From Clostridia bacterium (GTDB lineage: Bacteria > Bacillota > Clostridia > Oscillospirales > Acutalibacteraceae): a DNA stretch of 64,000 nucleotides. Below the pieces are notes generated by a model that was not told where the DNA came from, searched no databases, and worked only from the letters and a program-made list of their open reading frames with translations. A program made the position numbers and the translations under genes. Where the stretch lies: the NCBI GenBank assembly GCA_017516485.1, contig JAFXCH010000008.1:31571-95570 (forward strand), given 5' to 3'. This document shows positions 19,481 to 33,969 of this stretch, piece after piece; position 1 is the first letter of the stretch; each line of letters starts with the position of its first letter.

Positions 19481-20326
19481 ATGAAGGTTTTGGTAACAGG
19501 TTTTGCAGGTCAGCTCGGTCACGATGTAGCCGCTGAGCTTGCAGGCAGAGGAATAAGCTGTATAGCCGCAGACAAAGCAGATTTTGACCTGACAAACAAA
19601 GAATCCGTTAACGGATTTGTCGGTGCATGTAACCCGGACGTAATAATTCACTGTGCCGCATACACTGCAGTTGACAAAGCAGAGGAAGACAGTGCAAACT
19701 GCTACAATGTAAACATAAATGGCACACGTTATCTTTGCGAGGCCGCATCAAAGAATCAGGCAAAGTTTATATATATCAGCACCGATTATGTATTTGACGG
19801 TGAGAAAAATGAGCCTTATGAGGTTGATGATGCGACTTCTCCGCAATCCGTTTACGGTGCCACAAAGCTCGAGGGCGAGCACATTGTAAGAAGCAGCACA
19901 GCAAAGCATTTCATTGTGCGTACAGCCTGGGTTTTCGGTGCAAACGGCAACAACTTTGTAAAAACGATGCTACGCCTGGGTGCCGAACGCGAAACGCTCA
20001 CCGTAGTTTGTGACCAATTCGGTTCACCAACTTACACCAAAGACCTTGCAAGACTTCTGTGCGATATGGCACTCAGCGACAAATACGGCACATACCACGC
20101 TACAAACGAAGGTTTCTGCTCATGGGCAGACTTTGCTTGTGCAATAATGCATGGTGCAGGTCTTAGCGCAAGAGTTGTACCTATACCTTCATCGCAGTAT
20201 CCCGCAAAAGCCAAAAGGCCGATGAACAGCAGACTTTCGAAGCAAAAGCTGATTGACAACGGCTTCACTCCCCTGCCCGATTGGCAGGATGCGCTCGGCA
20301 GATACCTTGAAGAATTAAAGCAATAA
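19481..20326 (+). CDS. rmlD: dTDP-4-dehydrorhamnose reductase RmlD
   Basis: 281-residue SDR-fold reductase completing dTDP-L-rhamnose. NAD(P) loop VTGFAGQLGHDV (family GxxGxxG), then DVIIHCAAYTAVDKAE, FIYISTDYVFDG with the catalytic Tyr/Thr, and YGATKLEGE with the YxxxK-type Lys. The late block RPMNSRLSKQKL is specific for RmlD. RBS GAGGGAAAG precedes the ATG. RmlB (the 4,6-dehydratase between RmlA and RmlC) is missing from the cluster. Confidence 0.95.
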   Translation: MKVLVTGFAGQLGHDVAAELAGRGISCIAADKADFDLTNKESVNGFVGACNPDVIIHCAAYTAVDKAEEDSANCYNVNINGTRYLCEAASKNQAKFIYISTDYVFDGEKNEPYEVDDATSPQSVYGATKLEGEHIVRSSTAKHFIVRTAWVFGANGNNFVKTMLRLGAERETLTVVCDQFGSPTYTKDLARLLCDMALSDKYGTYHATNEGFCSWADFACAIMHGAGLSARVVPIPSSQYPAKAKRPMNSRLSKQKLIDNGFTPLPDWQDALGRYLEELKQ

Positions 20327-25389: not shown

Positions 25390-25436
25390 TAAAAATGAGC
25401 AGACTTGTAAAATACGCAAGCCTGCTCGTTATTTTA
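25390..25436. terminator. Bidirectional terminator between the regulator and the kinase gene
   Basis: Stem 25397-25407 with 25417-25427 containing one internal mismatch; A-rich on one side, T-rich on the other, between convergent genes. Confidence 0.75.
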
Positions 25437-26771
25437 TATCTCATAACTTATGAGTTTCTGTGCCTGTTCAAGGCTTTCTTTTGCCTTGCAAGCAACCAAA
25501 GCAGTTAATACTGCACCGTAAGCCGCCTCTTCACGGTGGAGCGGAATCTGCATTTCAGCACCAAGTGCCGCAGAAAAACGCTTTTGAAGCGGAAGATTCT
25601 TACGCAGGCCGTTACCCGAGCCGACGAGAGAAGTTGCCTTAAATCCCGTAGGCTCAATCATTTCAATAATCTCGCTTACCATTCCGCCGAGGAATCCGTT
25701 CATAAGTGCAACAGGAGTGAAATTATCTATACCGAGATTTGTTATACTGCCGCGTATAGTCGGGTCAGCCCTTGTACCGCTGAGCTTAGTAGAAACAACA
25801 AGAAAATCATCATCTGCCGACTCAAGTGCGGCATCCATATATTTATAGATACTGCCATCACACTCACAGCCTGCCATCTCAAGACAGCTCTTGAAGAAAT
25901 CTGCAAGCACCGCAAATGCTCTGCCGCCGCAGAGTGAACAGCCGACAAGTATATTCTTGCCCGAACACAGTGGTCTTATTTCCATATTATCAGGAGCTTT
26001 TGTAAGGTCGGTCAGCACAGATATCTGACCGCCCGTACCCATATTGACAAGGGCACAGCCCTCCATATCACGCACAGAGCCTATAAAGCTTGCCTGATTG
26101 TCGCCAATAGCAACACATACGGGTACACCGTTGTATTCACCTACCGCATCAAAATCGCAGGTAACATCGGGAAAGAAGCTGAAATCCATACCCGATTTCT
26201 CAATTGCGGCTTTATCAAAGCAACCGTTTGAAATATTGAAAAGGCTGAATGATGCAGCATCGGATGAATGAGTCAGCGGAGCTTTTCTGCCTGTGAGCAC
26301 CATTGCGGCATAATCGTGAATTGTACAGATTTTAACGGCAGACTCAGGCACAAGGTTATTTTTGCTGTGATAATAATACGTTGTACCGCCAAATCCGCTT
26401 GCTGTATTATAGCCCGTAATATCCGACAAAACGGATGCATACGTGCCGTTTTCATATGGCTGATTGCCGCTTTCATCCTGCCATGTATAGAGAGGGCTTA
26501 CAGCCTTACCGTCGGCATCGATATAAACTATACCGTGCATCTGACCCGTAATACCTACGGCACATACAGGTGAAAACTCATTAAAAAGCTGAGCCGCAAG
26601 TGACGTAACCTTGCTTATTATTGCTTCGGGCGACTGTATTTTTTCAAACGGCTTACCGTCGATAAAGCTGTCGTTATCAAGCGTAACCGATTTGAGCAGT
26701 TTACCCGAATCGGCATCAACGGCGATACCGCAGATTGTTGTAGTACCTATATCAAGACCTATTACATTCAT
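25434..26771 (-). CDS. FGGY-family carbohydrate kinase, sedoheptulokinase-like
   Basis: 445 residues from the ATG at 26771, GAGGATG upstream; the open frame extends 30 codons further only because it overlaps the upstream gene. ATP-grasping actin-like fold: VIGLDIGTTTICGIAVD, ITGQMHGIVYID, YTWQDESG, CVAIGDNQASFIGSV, VNMGTGGQISVL and VGSGNGLRKN. The TGQMHG, TWQD and GSGxxLxKN blocks resemble sedoheptulokinase (SHPK) more than xylulose or glycerol kinases. Third gene of the activase-GRE-kinase operon (10 nt after the GRE stop), so its sugar is probably substrate or product of the radical enzyme. Confidence 0.85.
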   Translation of the reverse strand: MNVIGLDIGTTTICGIAVDADSGKLLKSVTLDNDSFIDGKPFEKIQSPEAIISKVTSLAAQLFNEFSPVCAVGITGQMHGIVYIDADGKAVSPLYTWQDESGNQPYENGTYASVLSDITGYNTASGFGGTTYYYHSKNNLVPESAVKICTIHDYAAMVLTGRKAPLTHSSDAASFSLFNISNGCFDKAAIEKSGMDFSFFPDVTCDFDAVGEYNGVPVCVAIGDNQASFIGSVRDMEGCALVNMGTGGQISVLTDLTKAPDNMEIRPLCSGKNILVGCSLCGGRAFAVLADFFKSCLEMAGCECDGSIYKYMDAALESADDDFLVVSTKLSGTRADPTIRGSITNLGIDNFTPVALMNGFLGGMVSEIIEMIEPTGFKATSLVGSGNGLRKNLPLQKRFSAALGAEMQIPLHREEAAYGAVLTALVACKAKESLEQAQKLISYEI

Positions 26772-26781
26772 AGTTTCATCC

Positions 26782-29157
26782 TCAGATTTTTGTGGATTCA
26801 AGGTCAAGACGGGTAATAATATCATTTTGAATTGCCGGTGAAAGGTCAAGGAAATTGACAAACGTACCGTGAATTCTCATAATGTAAACACCGCTCGGAG
26901 CATACTTCTCGGGCTCTGCGAGCACCTTACGGAGAGTATCGGGAGTAGTAATATTAAAGTAGAGATAAGAGGGCGAAAGATTTTCATTCTTCTCATTGAA
27001 GAAGATAGGCTTAAGCACCTTATCGCGAAATTCTACGCCCTTCTCTTCATAATCGGCACCCTTGAAATACTTGGGGTCGATACCGAGATGTGAAGCGTAA
27101 CCGCCGTTGAATTTGCCGTAGGGCAGCTTCATAGCAGAGAGTGTACGGAAACCGAGGCCGTTGCCTGCCTCACCGTAGAGCGGATCTGTACCGTAGCCGA
27201 GCATATCTCTTGCACCTCTGCCGTCGGGTGTTGCACCTACCCAATAGCCATAGAGAAGATGTGTTGACGGGCTGGACCAATCAGCGCGGAAGGGATTGCC
27301 GAGGTAGTTTTTCTGTGAGCGTACGATATCGGAAATTCTGTTTGCAATTTCAGCAGCCTCGTTATCAACTGACTCGATACCGTTGCCGAATTTAGGTGCA
27401 GACTTGAGGAAAGCACGAAGCTCCTCATAGCCCTCAAAATTAACCTTAAGCGCCTCAATCAGCTTATCGCAATCCTCAGGACGCTCCTCAAGAAGCTTGT
27501 CGATAGCAATAAACGAATCGGCAATAACGGAAAGACCGTGGATAAGGCAACCGCTGCCGTTGTACTTTGTACCCTGCTTTTCGGGGTGACGTGTATCTAC
27601 AGCACTCTCACAGCCGCCCATAAATGCACTCAGGAAAGGTACACGAAGGTGTGAAAGTGCGACGGAAGCACCGTTTGCGGCATCAGCCATAATACTTGCG
27701 TAAACCTCGGCATTTTTATAAAAAGCCGTACGGATATTCTTAAGCAGCTCCTTGCTGCTCGGATAATCAACAAATGTGCCGATTTTTTCACCTGTGATTG
27801 TTGAGTTACCGCCATTGAGGGTAAGTTCAAGAATCTTGGGCAGGTTAAACCAGCTGTTTGTTGTGTTGCCGTTATCCTTACCCATTATCAGAGGCTCCTG
27901 ACAGCCTGCTACGGAGTAATCGGGCAAGTCACATTCCTCAACACCGCTTGCACGGAGAACTTCAAAAACAGTATCGTCGTTGAAGAATGAGGGTGTAAGC
28001 ACACCGGGAGTAAACATAAACTTACCGATTTCACGGTATAAGTTTTCGGGAGTATTTTTGTGAAGCTTGACAGAAAGGATGGGCTGAGGTAGGTTCATAT
28101 CGTAATATGCATCCATAATAGCATAGCTCATCTCGTTTGAAAGGTCGTTGCCCTCAACATCTCTGCCACCGACAAGAACATTCTGTGAAATAGCCCAGCT
28201 TCTGTCACCAACATTGAAGAATACGAGGAAGTGACGGAAGAGCTCTGCAGCCTCTTCGCGTGTTTCGCCTGACATTGCTCTGTAGGGCTCAAAAATTCTG
28301 TCAGCATTACCTACCGAGAAAGCAAAGGGATTGGGAGCCTGCTCAAGAGTCATAACCTCCCAGAGAATAAGGAAGGACTGTATTGCTTCGTAAAGTGACT
28401 CTGCACCGTTTGCAGGCACCTTACGAAGTGTCTTCTCCATAAGTTCAAGCTGAGCAGCACGCTCAGGTGAAGCAGATTCCTTCTGTTTTGCGGCAATATC
28501 TGCATAGCGGTTAGCAAGAGTAATTGTAGCCTCAAGCACCATTCTGATATCCTCGAGAGTATCCTTACGCTCATCGTTCTTTTCACTGTTAATTTTCTTG
28601 GTAAGGTCGGAAATCATCTTGTTAAGACCAACAGAAAGTGCCTTACGAAAATCGGGAATAAGGTGACCTGTTACCTGCTCGATAAAGAAAGCAACCTCGC
28701 CTGTGTATTTAGAATACTTCTCATAAACAGCACTAAGATCACGTACATAATCACTGCGCTTTGTACGATCGCGCATTGTATCGATGCGCTCCTGAGTAAA
28801 CTCCTCATTTGCCTCGATATCGCCGAAAACAGCTGTCGGGTCGCAATAACCGGAGAATGTCTCAACCTGGAAAGCAGGGTTGATAAGAGCGTAGCTTCGT
28901 GCAAAAGAATCGCTCTGTGTACCTGCAAATACATTATTATCGCTGATTGAAAGCGGAAGTTTTTCGAGAATCATCTTGAGCTCACGTGCAGCACGGAGTT
29001 CTTCACTCATACCGTTGCCGCTAAAGCCTGTTGCTTTATATGCAAGCTCACGTGAAAGGAACCAACCGTCGAGCCTTTTTTTTGCCCTCTCCTCACGGAA
29101 AAGGTCCTTCGCCATCTTTGTTATTTCGCCTTTAGCGTATATGTTTTTTACTGACAT
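26782..29157 (-). CDS. Glycyl radical enzyme, PFL/dehydratase superfamily, unassigned subgroup
   Basis: 791-residue radical enzyme. The catalytic Cys is C419 in SVAGCQEPLIMGKD; GCxEP with the adjacent Glu is the pattern of eliminases such as choline TMA-lyase and diol dehydratases, not of pyruvate formate-lyase, which has two adjacent Cys. The radical-bearing Gly is predicted at G764 near the C terminus in MRIHGTFVNFLDLSP, where the usual block is RV(S/A)GY. His before and Thr after the Gly are unusual. Encoded 17 nt after its activase and followed by an FGGY kinase, with no shell-protein genes nearby. The substrate is unknown; a polyol or sugar is an inference. Confidence 0.9.
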   Translation of the reverse strand: MSVKNIYAKGEITKMAKDLFREERAKKRLDGWFLSRELAYKATGFSGNGMSEELRAARELKMILEKLPLSISDNNVFAGTQSDSFARSYALINPAFQVETFSGYCDPTAVFGDIEANEEFTQERIDTMRDRTKRSDYVRDLSAVYEKYSKYTGEVAFFIEQVTGHLIPDFRKALSVGLNKMISDLTKKINSEKNDERKDTLEDIRMVLEATITLANRYADIAAKQKESASPERAAQLELMEKTLRKVPANGAESLYEAIQSFLILWEVMTLEQAPNPFAFSVGNADRIFEPYRAMSGETREEAAELFRHFLVFFNVGDRSWAISQNVLVGGRDVEGNDLSNEMSYAIMDAYYDMNLPQPILSVKLHKNTPENLYREIGKFMFTPGVLTPSFFNDDTVFEVLRASGVEECDLPDYSVAGCQEPLIMGKDNGNTTNSWFNLPKILELTLNGGNSTITGEKIGTFVDYPSSKELLKNIRTAFYKNAEVYASIMADAANGASVALSHLRVPFLSAFMGGCESAVDTRHPEKQGTKYNGSGCLIHGLSVIADSFIAIDKLLEERPEDCDKLIEALKVNFEGYEELRAFLKSAPKFGNGIESVDNEAAEIANRISDIVRSQKNYLGNPFRADWSSPSTHLLYGYWVGATPDGRGARDMLGYGTDPLYGEAGNGLGFRTLSAMKLPYGKFNGGYASHLGIDPKYFKGADYEEKGVEFRDKVLKPIFFNEKNENLSPSYLYFNITTPDTLRKVLAEPEKYAPSGVYIMRIHGTFVNFLDLSPAIQNDIITRLDLESTKI

Positions 29158-29174
29158 AATATGTAATCCCCCAT

Positions 29175-29885
29175 TCAGGTTCTGACTAATCTGATTGAAT
29201 TATTTTTAAGAATTTCGCAAAACTCACCAAACTGAGTTTCACTGACAAATGCATCATGCATTGTGTAGCTCATACCGTTTTGTTCCCATTTGTCTTTGCC
29301 GTACTCGTGGTAGCTGAGCACCTCGAGTGCAAAGCCTTCCTTTTTCATAACATGAGATAAGACACGGGCAAAACCCTCGGCATCCGACTTATCGGCATTG
29401 AAGCCGTTGATAAGCGGAATTCGCAGAAGAAGCTGACTTCGACATTCAAATGCCGCTTTGATATTGGAGATAACGGTTTCGTTGCCTACACCTGTGTACT
29501 CTTTTAACTTTATGCTGTCGTAATGCTTGAAATCCATAATAAGGAAATCAACAAGTTCAAACAATTCCGGCAAGCGAGGATTTGTGCCGTTAGTTTCGAT
29601 TGCGGTACTGATACCGTTTTCTTTAAGAATCATAAGGAGCTCTTTGAGCGCATCAAACTGAAGCGTAGGCTCGCCGCCCGTAAAGGTAACACCGCCACCG
29701 TCGAAAAACATAGGCTCAGCGGCAATAATCTGCTTTGCAATATCCTCAACCGATATTCCGCCGTCTTTAACAACCCTCATACTTTCGGGATTTGAACACC
29801 ACGGGCAGTGAAGATTGCACCCCTGAAGGTGGTAAACCAGGCGGTTACCCGGACCATCCTGCGAATAGTTGAAGCCCTTGTGCAA
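29175..29885 (-). CDS. Radical SAM glycyl-radical-enzyme activase
   Basis: 236 residues. The [4Fe-4S] site is C23-x3-C27-x2-C30 (QGCNLHCPWC), with GNRLVYHL just before and the SAM-binding FTGGEPTLQF at about 68-77. Only about 40 residues separate the cluster from GGEP, with no extra Cys, so the ferredoxin-like insert of CutD/PflD-type activases is absent and the protein is PFL-activase-like in size. No ATG is available: the frame starts at TTG (29885) about 19 nt from GAGGTGG, while an in-frame ATT three codons upstream is better spaced (IKVLHKG). First gene of the operon. Confidence 0.92.
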   Translation of the reverse strand: MHKGFNYSQDGPGNRLVYHLQGCNLHCPWCSNPESMRVVKDGGISVEDIAKQIIAAEPMFFDGGGVTFTGGEPTLQFDALKELLMILKENGISTAIETNGTNPRLPELFELVDFLIMDFKHYDSIKLKEYTGVGNETVISNIKAAFECRSQLLLRIPLINGFNADKSDAEGFARVLSHVMKKEGFALEVLSYHEYGKDKWEQNGMSYTMHDAFVSETQFGEFCEILKNNSIRLVRT

Positions 29886-29933
29886 AACTTTAATATCCGT
29901 AAAACCACCTCTTTCACCTATAGTTATTATTGT

Positions 29934-29962
29934 ATTTTACCATAAGCGAAAATATGAGTCAA
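29934..29962 (-). promoter_or_regulatory. Sigma-A-like promoter for the activase-GRE-kinase operon
   Basis: TTGACT, 17-nt spacer, TAAAAT on the minus strand. The expected transcript begins about 40 nt before the coding region, which limits the possible start codons of the activase. Confidence 0.65.
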
Positions 29963-31932: not shown

Positions 31933-33969
31933 TCAGTTTCCGAAGGTCGAGCTCATATCAGCCTGAACAACCTCTCTTGTGACTTTAACAAACTTCGAAC
32001 CTGCTATTTTTTCCTGAAGCAGTTTGAAATAAAGCTCCTTATCTATAGGCAGCTCAACGGTTTTATCAAGCCAGCTTGAAAGGTGTGCACAGTTGGAAAT
32101 TGTAAGGCCGTTGATACCCTCTTCGCCTCTGCCGACAAGGTCACCGCCGCGGAGAATGTTATCGCCGAACTGTGTCATTACCTGAACGTGCTGTGACCAC
32201 GGTGCGGGGTCGGGAGTAATTGTATATGTTGTTGTATCGATTCTGCCGAAGCCCTCATCTGCTGTATCGCAGAACTCCTGACAAGACTGAGCAAGCTCAA
32301 TAACCTCAAGCTTGTTGTTCATACATACAATCTTTGCTTTATCAAGAGTAATCTCAAGACGGTTTGTGCCCGGATAGTCACCTGTTGTGGTGATGAACAC
32401 ACCTGTTGCACCGTTGGGATAATCGACATAAATTGTTACATCGTCCTCAACCTCAATGTTGTGCCACTTACCTTCGTGGAGGAAACCGCGTACCTTACAA
32501 GGCATACCGCAGAGCCACTGCCAGAGGTCGAGCTGGTGGGGACACTGATTGAGAAGCACACCGCCGCCTTCACCTGACCAGGTTGCACGCCAGTCGCCTG
32601 AATCGTAATAGGACTGTGTTCTGTACCAATCGGTAATAATCCAGTTAACACGCTTGATTTCGCCGTACTGACCTCCCTGAAGCATCTCACGAAGCTTGAT
32701 ATAGCAGGGATTTGTACGCTGATTGAACATAATTGCAAATGACTTGTCGCTCTTTGCGGCAACCTCATTCATCTCTTCAACCTGCTTTGTGTATACGCCT
32801 GCAGGCTTTTCAATCATAACGTGAAGGCCTGCATTAAGACCTTCGATTGCGTATGTAGGATGCAGATAGTGAGGTGTCGCAACAAGAATTGCATCAACTT
32901 CACCTGAAGCAATAAGCTCACTGCCGTCGTTGTAAACCTTTACATTCGGGAACATTTCGAGAGCTGCCTGACGGCGTGACTCTTTAAGGTCGGCAACAGC
33001 GGTAAGCTCAAACTCGGGCATACAGCCTGAAAGAATATTCTGCATATGGCTTGTACCCATATTACCGCAACCGATAACACCAAGGCGGATACTGCCCTTT
33101 GAAAGAGATTCGAGTATCTCCTTGAGTGCGTTTACGGCTGCATCAAAGGATTCATCGGAGCTTGCATATACGTAGCTCTTTTTCTTTTCGATTGACTTGA
33201 TTGTGCCGTTGTCGGGTTCAAGATTCTCAAGGCCGTCAAATACTGTAAGATGCGGTTCAAGAGAAAGGAATTTATCGCCGTGGTTACGTGCAAAGCGCTT
33301 GATAATTTCAGCAACGCTGCCGTCACCTTTACCTGCAGGCACAACCTCACCGTTTTCAAAATAAGCATCCTTGACGTGAAGATATTTTACAAAGCCTGCA
33401 ACCTTTTCATAAGCAACAAGCGGGTCAACACCGCATTGAATATAGTTTGCAGGGTCAACAATCGCATAGAGATTGGGAGCACAATAACGGAGCACCTCAA
33501 GATTTCTGTCGTCAGTGTCACCGTAAATCTCCTTCTCATTTTCAAGGCAGCAATAAATACCGTGCTGTGCCGAATAATCTGCAAGAGCCTTTACTCTGCG
33601 GAGTACTTCTTCACGGTTATCCTCATAGCTCTGACCCTTTGTGAAGAAGAAACTGAACATACGGATATATTTTGTCTCAAGAATTTTTGCAACCTCAACA
33701 GTGTTCTTGAATTTTTCAAAATGAGGCTCAAAATCATCATCAATTTCGATTTTGCCGTAAGGAGAACCGATTGAAGAAACCTTGATGCCCTCTGCATCAA
33801 GCTTTGCCTTCAGCTCTTTTGCCTCTTCAACGGTAAAATCAGCTATATTCTTGCCGTTGATACCTCTGGGTTCAAAATAAGACATATTGTTACGCTTGAG
33901 TGCCGCAATCTGACCGTCAAGCTCCTTGGAGGCTTCGTCTGCAAAGCCGGAGAGAATAAAATTCAACAT
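31933..33969 (-). CDS. Fusion: xylose isomerase-like TIM barrel + Gfo/Idh/MocA dehydrogenase
   Basis: 678 residues in one uninterrupted frame. Residues 1-280 are a sugar phosphate isomerase/epimerase (AP endonuclease 2 fold): FILSGFADEASKELDGQIAA, CCLENEKEIYGDT with a metal-binding Glu, YAIVDPANYIQCG with Asp, YLHVKDAYF with His, and FLSLEPHL with Glu. Residues about 293-678 are an NAD-dependent dehydrogenase: LGVIGCGNMGTSHMQNIL, ILVATPHYLHP and VMIEKPAGVYTKQ. Separate neighbouring genes for such pairs are common in inositol and keto-sugar pathways; a fusion suggests consecutive steps on one substrate. No frameshift separates the domains. Confidence 0.9.
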   Translation of the reverse strand: MLNFILSGFADEASKELDGQIAALKRNNMSYFEPRGINGKNIADFTVEEAKELKAKLDAEGIKVSSIGSPYGKIEIDDDFEPHFEKFKNTVEVAKILETKYIRMFSFFFTKGQSYEDNREEVLRRVKALADYSAQHGIYCCLENEKEIYGDTDDRNLEVLRYCAPNLYAIVDPANYIQCGVDPLVAYEKVAGFVKYLHVKDAYFENGEVVPAGKGDGSVAEIIKRFARNHGDKFLSLEPHLTVFDGLENLEPDNGTIKSIEKKKSYVYASSDESFDAAVNALKEILESLSKGSIRLGVIGCGNMGTSHMQNILSGCMPEFELTAVADLKESRRQAALEMFPNVKVYNDGSELIASGEVDAILVATPHYLHPTYAIEGLNAGLHVMIEKPAGVYTKQVEEMNEVAAKSDKSFAIMFNQRTNPCYIKLREMLQGGQYGEIKRVNWIITDWYRTQSYYDSGDWRATWSGEGGGVLLNQCPHQLDLWQWLCGMPCKVRGFLHEGKWHNIEVEDDVTIYVDYPNGATGVFITTTGDYPGTNRLEITLDKAKIVCMNNKLEVIELAQSCQEFCDTADEGFGRIDTTTYTITPDPAPWSQHVQVMTQFGDNILRGGDLVGRGEEGINGLTISNCAHLSSWLDKTVELPIDKELYFKLLQEKIAGSKFVKVTREVVQADMSSTFGN

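Follow-up and report, generated by a model that had tools for sequence, protein, structure and literature searches.

Glycyl radical enzymes (GREs) carry out reactions that are hard for other enzymes. Newly studied GRE clusters have revealed new anaerobic pathways, as illustrated by sulfonate lyase in passages of one such study (PMC6453916). According to a 2025 review, YbiW and PflD of Escherichia coli cleave 1,5-anhydroglucitol- and 1,5-anhydromannitol-6-phosphate to 1-deoxyfructose-6-phosphate, their substrates being phosphorylated by the phosphotransferase system (PTS) (PMC12441222; Ma et al. 2024 cited there). FsaA and FsaB adjoin ybiW and pflD in E. coli. Here, we consider a three-gene unit in a 64,000-nucleotide stretch of DNA from a Clostridia bacterium of the Acutalibacteraceae (assembly GCA_017516485.1, contig JAFXCH010000008.1, positions 31,571 to 95,570, forward strand), hereafter the window. 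On its minus strand, genes for an activase, a GRE, and an FGGY-family sugar kinase are open and collinear, separated by 17 and 10 bases (Table 1), which bears out an earlier, sequence-only reading of the window that called them an operon. The same reading was aware of no described pathway that couples a GRE to such a kinase. A search of open-licence PubMed Central literature likewise listed no study that pairs a GRE with an FGGY kinase. To call this chemistry undescribed is nevertheless only partly right, since YbiW and PflD are sugar GREs, although according to the review cited the PTS, not a kinase, phosphorylates their substrates. The results presented below describe a distinct GRE branch that in some rumen and gut Clostridia is usually encoded next to its activator and a sugar kinase, often together with a sugar-isomerase-like gene, and that would carry out an unassigned radical step of sugar breakdown.

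The GRE matched the PFL-like catalytic domain PF02901 with 382 bits (E 6.7e-114) but reached the curated cut-off of none of the nine NCBIfam GRE models with a match to it (PFL2-3, CutC, HypD, HpsG, HpfG, indoleacetate decarboxylase, HPAD, PflB, and PRK09983). The best of these scores was 258.5 bits to the broad PFL2-3 model (cut-off 678.2), and the eight equivalogs scored lower. By sequence, its best PDB match was the B12-independent glycerol dehydratase 1r8w (230 bits). A maximum-likelihood tree of 53 rows (10 from the window's family, six named references, and 37 others) placed the family in one clade with 100% SH-aLRT support. This clade joined none of the references: the window's GRE grouped neither with the Pdu-type GRE nor with YbiW or PflD (25% and 27% identity, respectively). 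Its stem was long, at 2.48 changes per column, exceeded only by that of the PflB pair (2.73), and blastp identities to the other 43 rows were ~30% or less. The tree came from a quick search with SH-aLRT as the only support and carries a long-branch attraction warning; the junction of the family with other GREs is unsure because long branches meet there, while the separateness of the clade is unaffected.

The isethionate lyase GRE paper applied a threshold of >~60% identity to tell characterised GREs of distinct activity apart (PMC6453916). The family members compared here lie at about the 60% level to the window's GRE, and every other GRE compared lies at ~30% or less. As judged from scores, identities, and tree, the GRE belongs to a separate, new subfamily matching no named family model; the sequence-only reading, which had considered that it might fall within a characterised cluster, is not contradicted on this point as far as the named models and the six named references go. 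Plasmid and phage collections held no close relative, their best rows reaching ~27–30% identity, and a mobile origin of the GRE was rejected for this reason.

The suggestion that the GRE is of the eliminase type held up in alignments to 1r8w. The residues corresponding to Cys433, Glu435, His164, and Gly763, which are catalytic in glycerol dehydratase, are all kept, and the C419/E421 motif was invariant in alignments of 16 and 13 rows. The position of H165 is occupied by His in the Pdu-type GRE, PflD, YbiW, and HypD, by Asp in CutC, and by Arg in PflB, which favors C-O cleavage without proving it. Three diol-binding, substrate-contact residues of glycerol dehydratase, His281, Ser282, and Asp447, are F278, A279, and T433 in the window's GRE. 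The radical loop also differs: the family has RIHGTFVNF with three extra residues ahead of it, a feature on which the sequence-only reading did not remark, whereas the six references have RV(A/S)GY. The string IHGTFVNF was present in all 80 homologous loci described below. Such a loop raises the question of how far the radical motif can change while the activase still works.

Both partner proteins of the GRE were recognizable. The activase matched Radical_SAM in Pfam (76 bits), has its CX3CX2C motif as CNLHCPWC, and scored 176.8 bits against NCBIfam TIGR02494 (cut-off 174.35). The kinase matched FGGY_N with 72 bits, and its FGGY_C score was just under the cut-off (25.6 versus 27). Its best named match was XylB, at 113.7 bits against a cut-off of 380.25; no sedoheptulokinase model turned up among the models scanned, so that the sedoheptulokinase-like label of the sequence-only reading stays a suggestion from motifs. 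All motifs listed in the sequence-only reading, GCxEP in the GRE and TGQMHG, TWQD, and GSGxxLxKN in the kinase, were found, as GCQEP, TGQMHG, TWQD, and VGSGNGLRKN.

To assess the conservation of the unit, contigs were scanned for GRE relatives (326 at E up to 1e-3), and the neighborhoods of the best 80 of these 326, at 63–97% identity, were analyzed; since only the best were kept, the sample leans to close relatives. The activase adjoined the GRE in 78 of the 80 loci. The same FGGY kinase lay downstream of the GRE in 71 (66 of the 73 with more than 1.3 kb of downstream DNA), so that conservation of the kinase beside close homologues, set beforehand as a test of the operon, was observed. A gene for a type I mannose-6-phosphate-isomerase-like (ManA-like) protein followed the kinase in 37 of 80 loci (37 of the 69 with more than 2.7 kb downstream). 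Seven loci with downstream room had no usual kinase (L087, L111, L109, L069, L071, L072, and L117). In L087 and L111, which have a GH32 gene upstream of the activase, its place is taken by a xylulokinase above the NCBIfam cut-off (495 and 488 versus 380 bits), and in L109 by a PfkB kinase. Two loci belong to named strains: Sporanaerobium hydrogeniformans XHS1971 (L080) has the GRE with the kinase and the isomerase-like gene, and Bacterium 1XD8-76 (L071) has the GRE without the kinase. Within 8 kb of the 80 GREs we found ROK repressors near 14, GH38 genes near 5 (one on the opposite strand), GH51-type arabinofuranosidase genes near 3, and GH32 genes near 2. With the isomerases and aldolase described below, these neighbors agree with the sugar context proposed earlier.

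Co-occurrence was estimated across 150 genomes from the window's taxonomic family, its own included, 21 of which matched the GRE at E up to 1e-60. Nineteen with 61–100% GRE identity were taken as carriers; two others, at 31–32%, were not counted. The kinase was present in 18 of 19 carriers versus 3 of 131 other genomes. In two carriers the kinase and the GRE are on different contigs (G144 and G048, the latter with one TAG inside the kinase), and in the sole carrier without it (G014) the contig ends 241 bases past the GRE. Of the three kinase-only genomes, G028 has the gene close to the end of a contig; in G049 and G132, GH32-like genes adjoin it. The ManA-like gene was found in 17 of 19 carriers versus 3 of 131 others; in 8 of the 17 it is a more distant homologue (36–41% identity) not beside the GRE. 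RhaA was detected in 19/19 carriers versus 47/131 others at E up to 1e-3, and in 15/19 versus 32/131 above cut-off. The Fisher tests overstate this association because they assume independent genomes, and related genomes are not independent; several carriers are also incomplete. RhaA was the strongest isomerase tested but was rejected as a specific partner, since XylA (8/19 versus 17/131 above cut-off) and IolD (13/19 versus 19/131 above cut-off) are enriched too. Among 398 genomes across the phylum, only the window's own had a member at E up to 1e-150, in a scan that scored at most two candidates per genome, so that absences in it are not firm.

The ManA-like protein is a recurrent third partner. 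The sequence-only reading, made from the window, had recognized the activase-GRE-kinase unit but not this partner. In all 11 proteins aligned to E. coli ManA, the QxHP, KxE, and HA elements, the zinc ligands, are kept, but these proteins lack the Arg found in the NSDNxxRAGLTPK stretch of the E. coli enzyme. All five proteins scanned scored 67–93 bits against TIGR00218, below the cut-off of 116. Because of these low scores and the lost Arg, the ManA-like protein may have another aldose/ketose pair as its substrate, perhaps an unphosphorylated one. In the window's genome, its homologue lies beside iolG, iolD, and iolE. In full, the arrangement is iolG-iolD-iolE followed by a PHP-like gene and the ManA-like homologue; it was seen in the window's genus at L174 (G000:C38:43000-61000), L175, and L176, where no IolB, IolC, or aldolase gene was noticed by eye beside the iol cluster.

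Some loci contain longer runs of genes. In L100, the activase, GRE, kinase, a PfkB kinase, a class II aldolase, and two aldo/keto reductases are encoded on one strand; L109 has GRE, PfkB, class II aldolase, and aldo/keto reductase. In L106, activase, GRE, kinase, ManA-like gene, RhaA, and RhaD stand in a row, the L-rhamnose isomerase and rhamnulose-1-phosphate aldolase both scoring above cut-off. Downstream of the module, L096, L102, L107, and L120 have a GH38 alpha-mannosidase gene in the same orientation, while in L055, L063, and L068 the gene after the kinase encodes an alpha-L-arabinofuranosidase; these assignments were made by similarity and confirmed in Pfam for L102, L063, and the L107 counterpart. 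The extended operons suggest a sugar route via a ketose phosphate and an aldolase and do not agree on one sugar.

Several other arrangements were seen at these loci. The run in L100 (L100:5131-17443, one strand) begins with an aldo/keto reductase, a second activase, and a second GRE (688 aa) ahead of the genes listed above, and so holds two GREs. The GH38 open reading frame (ORF) at L102:6334-9732 matches aldo/keto reductase in its C-terminal residues 927–1121, as a glycosidase-reductase fusion. At L070:14873-17497, starting 66 bases after the GRE, kinase, and isomerase-like genes, a second, different GRE (874 aa) carries an AraC-type helix-turn-helix fused at its N terminus and matches PF12833, PF02901, and PF01228. 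L225:1492-4098 (minus strand) and L230:667-3321 (plus strand) group with this fusion and have a similar N-terminal stretch by eye; a GRE bearing a DNA-binding domain would be unusual. In three GRE genomes (L187, L188, and L189), RhaA directly follows two transketolase-half genes, both halves being confirmed in Pfam for L187 and identified by eye in L188 and L189.

Our best reading, which we hold tentatively and would place somewhat short of probable, is that the unit forms an anaerobic sugar-catabolic module in which a C-O-cleaving GRE acts on a sugar-derived substrate and feeds an isomerase, a kinase, and an aldolase. The activase would put a radical on G764, from which it would pass to C419; the thiyl radical would then take a hydrogen from a hydroxyl-bearing carbon of a polyol, anhydro-sugar, or related compound derived from a sugar. 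E421 would remove the hydroxyl proton, and the neighboring C-O bond would leave with H165 as the acid. The product would be a (deoxy)ketose or aldose, which the ManA-like isomerase, perhaps with RhaA, and the FGGY kinase would convert to a ketose phosphate that an aldolase can split. In this order of steps, the GRE and the kinase would act on consecutive intermediates. More specifically, and with rather more doubt than belief, the family may be a new isofunctional GRE class, with RIHGT in place of the RVAGY loop, that breaks a C-O bond in a sugar-type substrate lacking phosphate and passes its product to the isomerase and an ATP-dependent ketose kinase.

Several observations weigh against a C-O-cleaving sugar GRE. 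The ManA-like proteins score below the isomerase cut-off, and the window's unit itself contains no isomerase or aldolase genes. At four of the 73 loci with downstream room (L069, L071, L072, and L117), inspection by eye showed no sugar kinase next to the GRE. The neighbors indicate several sugars (mannosides, arabinosides, fructans, and rhamnose) and no single substrate, the pocket was read from alignments only, and part of any co-occurrence may reflect lifestyle, since XylA and IolD, too, are overrepresented among carriers. The Pfam Gly_radical model PF01228 did not match at E up to 5 in any of the six family members scanned, and it did match two other GREs scanned. As G764 aligns with Gly763, we attribute the lack of a match to divergence of the loop, and formation of the radical on the GRE is inferred from this glycine and the activase. 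Even so, the module is better conserved than could be known from the window, as a compact gene pair and in genome-level co-occurrence, and it offers a defined enzyme set with which to ask which sugar is involved.

In one alternative, which is unlikely but the least so of those weighed here, the kinase acts first: it would phosphorylate a 1,5-anhydro-alditol, and the GRE would open the ring to 1-deoxyfructose-6-phosphate in the manner of YbiW/PflD. A sugar GRE of this kind exists, according to the review cited (PMC12441222), the catalytic Cys-Glu-His set is common to YbiW/PflD and the window's GRE, and a kinase could replace the PTS step. However, the family lies outside the YbiW and PflD clades, and an anhydroglycitol pathway offers no obvious function for the isomerase-like partner. 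Fructose-6-phosphate aldolase (FSA; TIGR00875) was detected in 2 of 19 carriers, both below cut-off, versus 15 of 131 other genomes, and the window's genome gave no match; anhydroglycolysis with FSA was rejected on this negative co-occurrence. Also unlikely is a rhamnose branch with the kinase as rhamnulokinase and the GRE as a shell-less 1,2-propanediol dehydratase disposing of the lactaldehyde half of L-rhamnose. It would account for RhaA in all carriers, for the row of genes in L106, for isomerase-like-MFS-GH3-RhaA in G015, and for the RhaA-RhaD-FucO-like genes of G145. Nevertheless, a RhaB-like kinase is already present elsewhere in 18/19 carriers (58/131 others; E up to 1e-60), 17 of them below cut-off and only that of G023 above it, which weakens the case for the module's kinase as a missing rhamnulokinase. 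RhaD at E up to 1e-30 was found in just 12/19 carriers (32/131 others) and not in the window's genome, and the diol-binding residues of glycerol dehydratase are replaced in the GRE. The enrichment of XylA and IolD further implies that part of the rhamnose signal is a saccharolytic lifestyle.

The kinase and the isomerase-like protein could instead lead from a mannoside through mannose and fructose to fructose-6-phosphate, the GRE being co-regulated and acting elsewhere in fermentation. We consider this improbable, even with the GH38 genes that follow the module, the GH32-like genes that adjoin the kinase without GRE in L151 and L152, and the PfkB kinase (fructokinase-like, sub-cut-off) that follows the isomerase-like gene in L183: the kinase is rare without the GRE (the 3 of 131 non-GRE genomes noted above, one at a contig end), the GRE gene is flanked by those for activase and kinase at distances of 10 to 17 bases, and other kinases replace the usual one beside the GRE. 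Replacement of IolB and IolC by the ManA-like isomerase and the kinase, with the GRE dehydrating an inositol, is very improbable. The isomerase homologue does follow iolG-iolD-iolE and the PHP-like gene in the window's genome and in two others from the genus, and IolD is enriched in carriers. Carrier G108, however, has its own IolC (above cut-off), IolB-like gene (below), and class II aldolase beside IolD, as G056 appears to by eye; 6 of 19 carriers have no IolD above cut-off, and no GRE was noticed with an iol gene next to it. The genes of G108 and the carriers without IolD led us to reject this pathway, and a C-O-cleaving sugar GRE remains our best reading.

A single transcript for the three genes is plausible, judging from a promoter-like site upstream of the activase and a strong terminator-like hairpin after the kinase (Table 1). 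The sequence-only reading had assigned one promoter to the unit; there is such a site, but it is weak evidence because 12 promoter-like sites were found in the region by consensus scan versus 8.2 expected. The hairpin was found separately, its loop of 9 being beyond the limits of the region-wide promoter/terminator scan. The conserved N terminus of the activase has no ATG in the window and would begin at TTG or at a codon upstream of it; a ribosome-binding-like site lies ahead of ATT or TTG there (29885-29895), and the close relatives L024 and L042 also have a non-ATG start. For the kinase, a longer ORF could begin at a TTG at 26861, inside the GRE, whereas the start that corresponds to those of its homologues is the ATG at 26771.

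Table 1. Features of the activase-GRE-kinase unit in the window.
Feature	Position	Strand	Basis or remark
GRE activase, short, radical SAM, 236 aa from TTG	29175..29885	-	true start uncertain (non-ATG)
Glycyl radical enzyme, 791 aa, divergent-clade member	26782..29157	-	PF02901, 382 bits
FGGY-family sugar kinase, 445 aa, ATG start	25434..26771	-	Pfam, motifs, conservation beside GRE
H165 codon	28663..28665	-	aligned with His164 of glycerol dehydratase 1r8w
C419-Q420-E421 codons (GCQEP)	27895..27903	-	aligned with Cys433 and Glu435 of 1r8w
Atypical glycyl-radical loop YAPSGVYIMRIHGTFVNFL	26848..26904	-	alignment to references
G764 codon	26866-26868	-	aligned with Gly763 of 1r8w; loop RIHGT
Promoter-like site, TTGACT-17-TAAAAT with TG, 10/12 consensus	29934..29962	-	just upstream of activase; consensus scan
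Intrinsic-terminator-like hairpin after kinase	25393..25433	-	11 pairs, loop 9, -17.4 kcal/mol, T tail

Two other regions of the window were noted. A 678-aa ORF at 31933-33969 (minus strand) joins a xylose-isomerase-like TIM barrel to a GFO/IDH/MocA oxidoreductase; in the relative L025, its counterparts by sequence match are a pair of separate ORFs (297 and 377 aa). At 19481-20326 (plus strand), the window encodes the dTDP-4-dehydrorhamnose reductase RmlD (324 bits versus a cut-off of 224), whose homologue, with two neighbors, also lies a few kilobases from the GRE locus in L027.

The sequence-only reading had also stated that no microcompartment shell genes are present; none were noticed by eye among the neighbors, though no search aimed at them was made, and a microcompartment pathway was set aside with the same qualification. 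If the more specific reading holds, in which a new GRE class acts on an unphosphorylated sugar-type substrate, Clostridia of ruminants and the gut would have a second radical route into glycolysis, independent of the first and needing no PTS, microcompartment, or FSA aldolase. The parts of the module can be compared with known enzymes one by one. The GRE shares eliminase architecture with CutC, HypD, and the sulfopropanediol dehydratases but scores far below the cut-offs of their NCBIfam equivalogs, and CutC has Asp where it has H165. It keeps the four catalytic positions of B12-independent glycerol/1,2-propanediol dehydratase (1r8w; Pdu-type) but differs in the substrate pocket and lies outside the Pdu-type clade. 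The kinase has the FGGY fold of xylulokinase and sedoheptulokinase, and a true XylB replaces it in two loci; unlike xylulokinase, it is 445 aa long and reaches 114 bits against the XylB cut-off of 380. The third partner resembles type I ManA in its QxHP, KxE, and HA elements and differs from it in score and in the lost Arg. As a whole, the module follows the isomerase, FGGY kinase, and aldolase logic of the L-rhamnose pathway (RhaA-RhaB-RhaD), and one locus joins RhaA and RhaD to it; unlike that pathway, it has a GRE and a ManA-like protein, and RhaD was not found in 7 of 19 carriers. With YbiW/PflD anhydroglycolysis it shares the catalytic Cys, Glu, and His and a proposed role in sugar breakdown that also involves phosphorylation and an aldolase, but it forms a separate clade and has an ATP kinase rather than the PTS, an isomerase-like partner, a different glycyl loop, and no association with the FSA aldolase.

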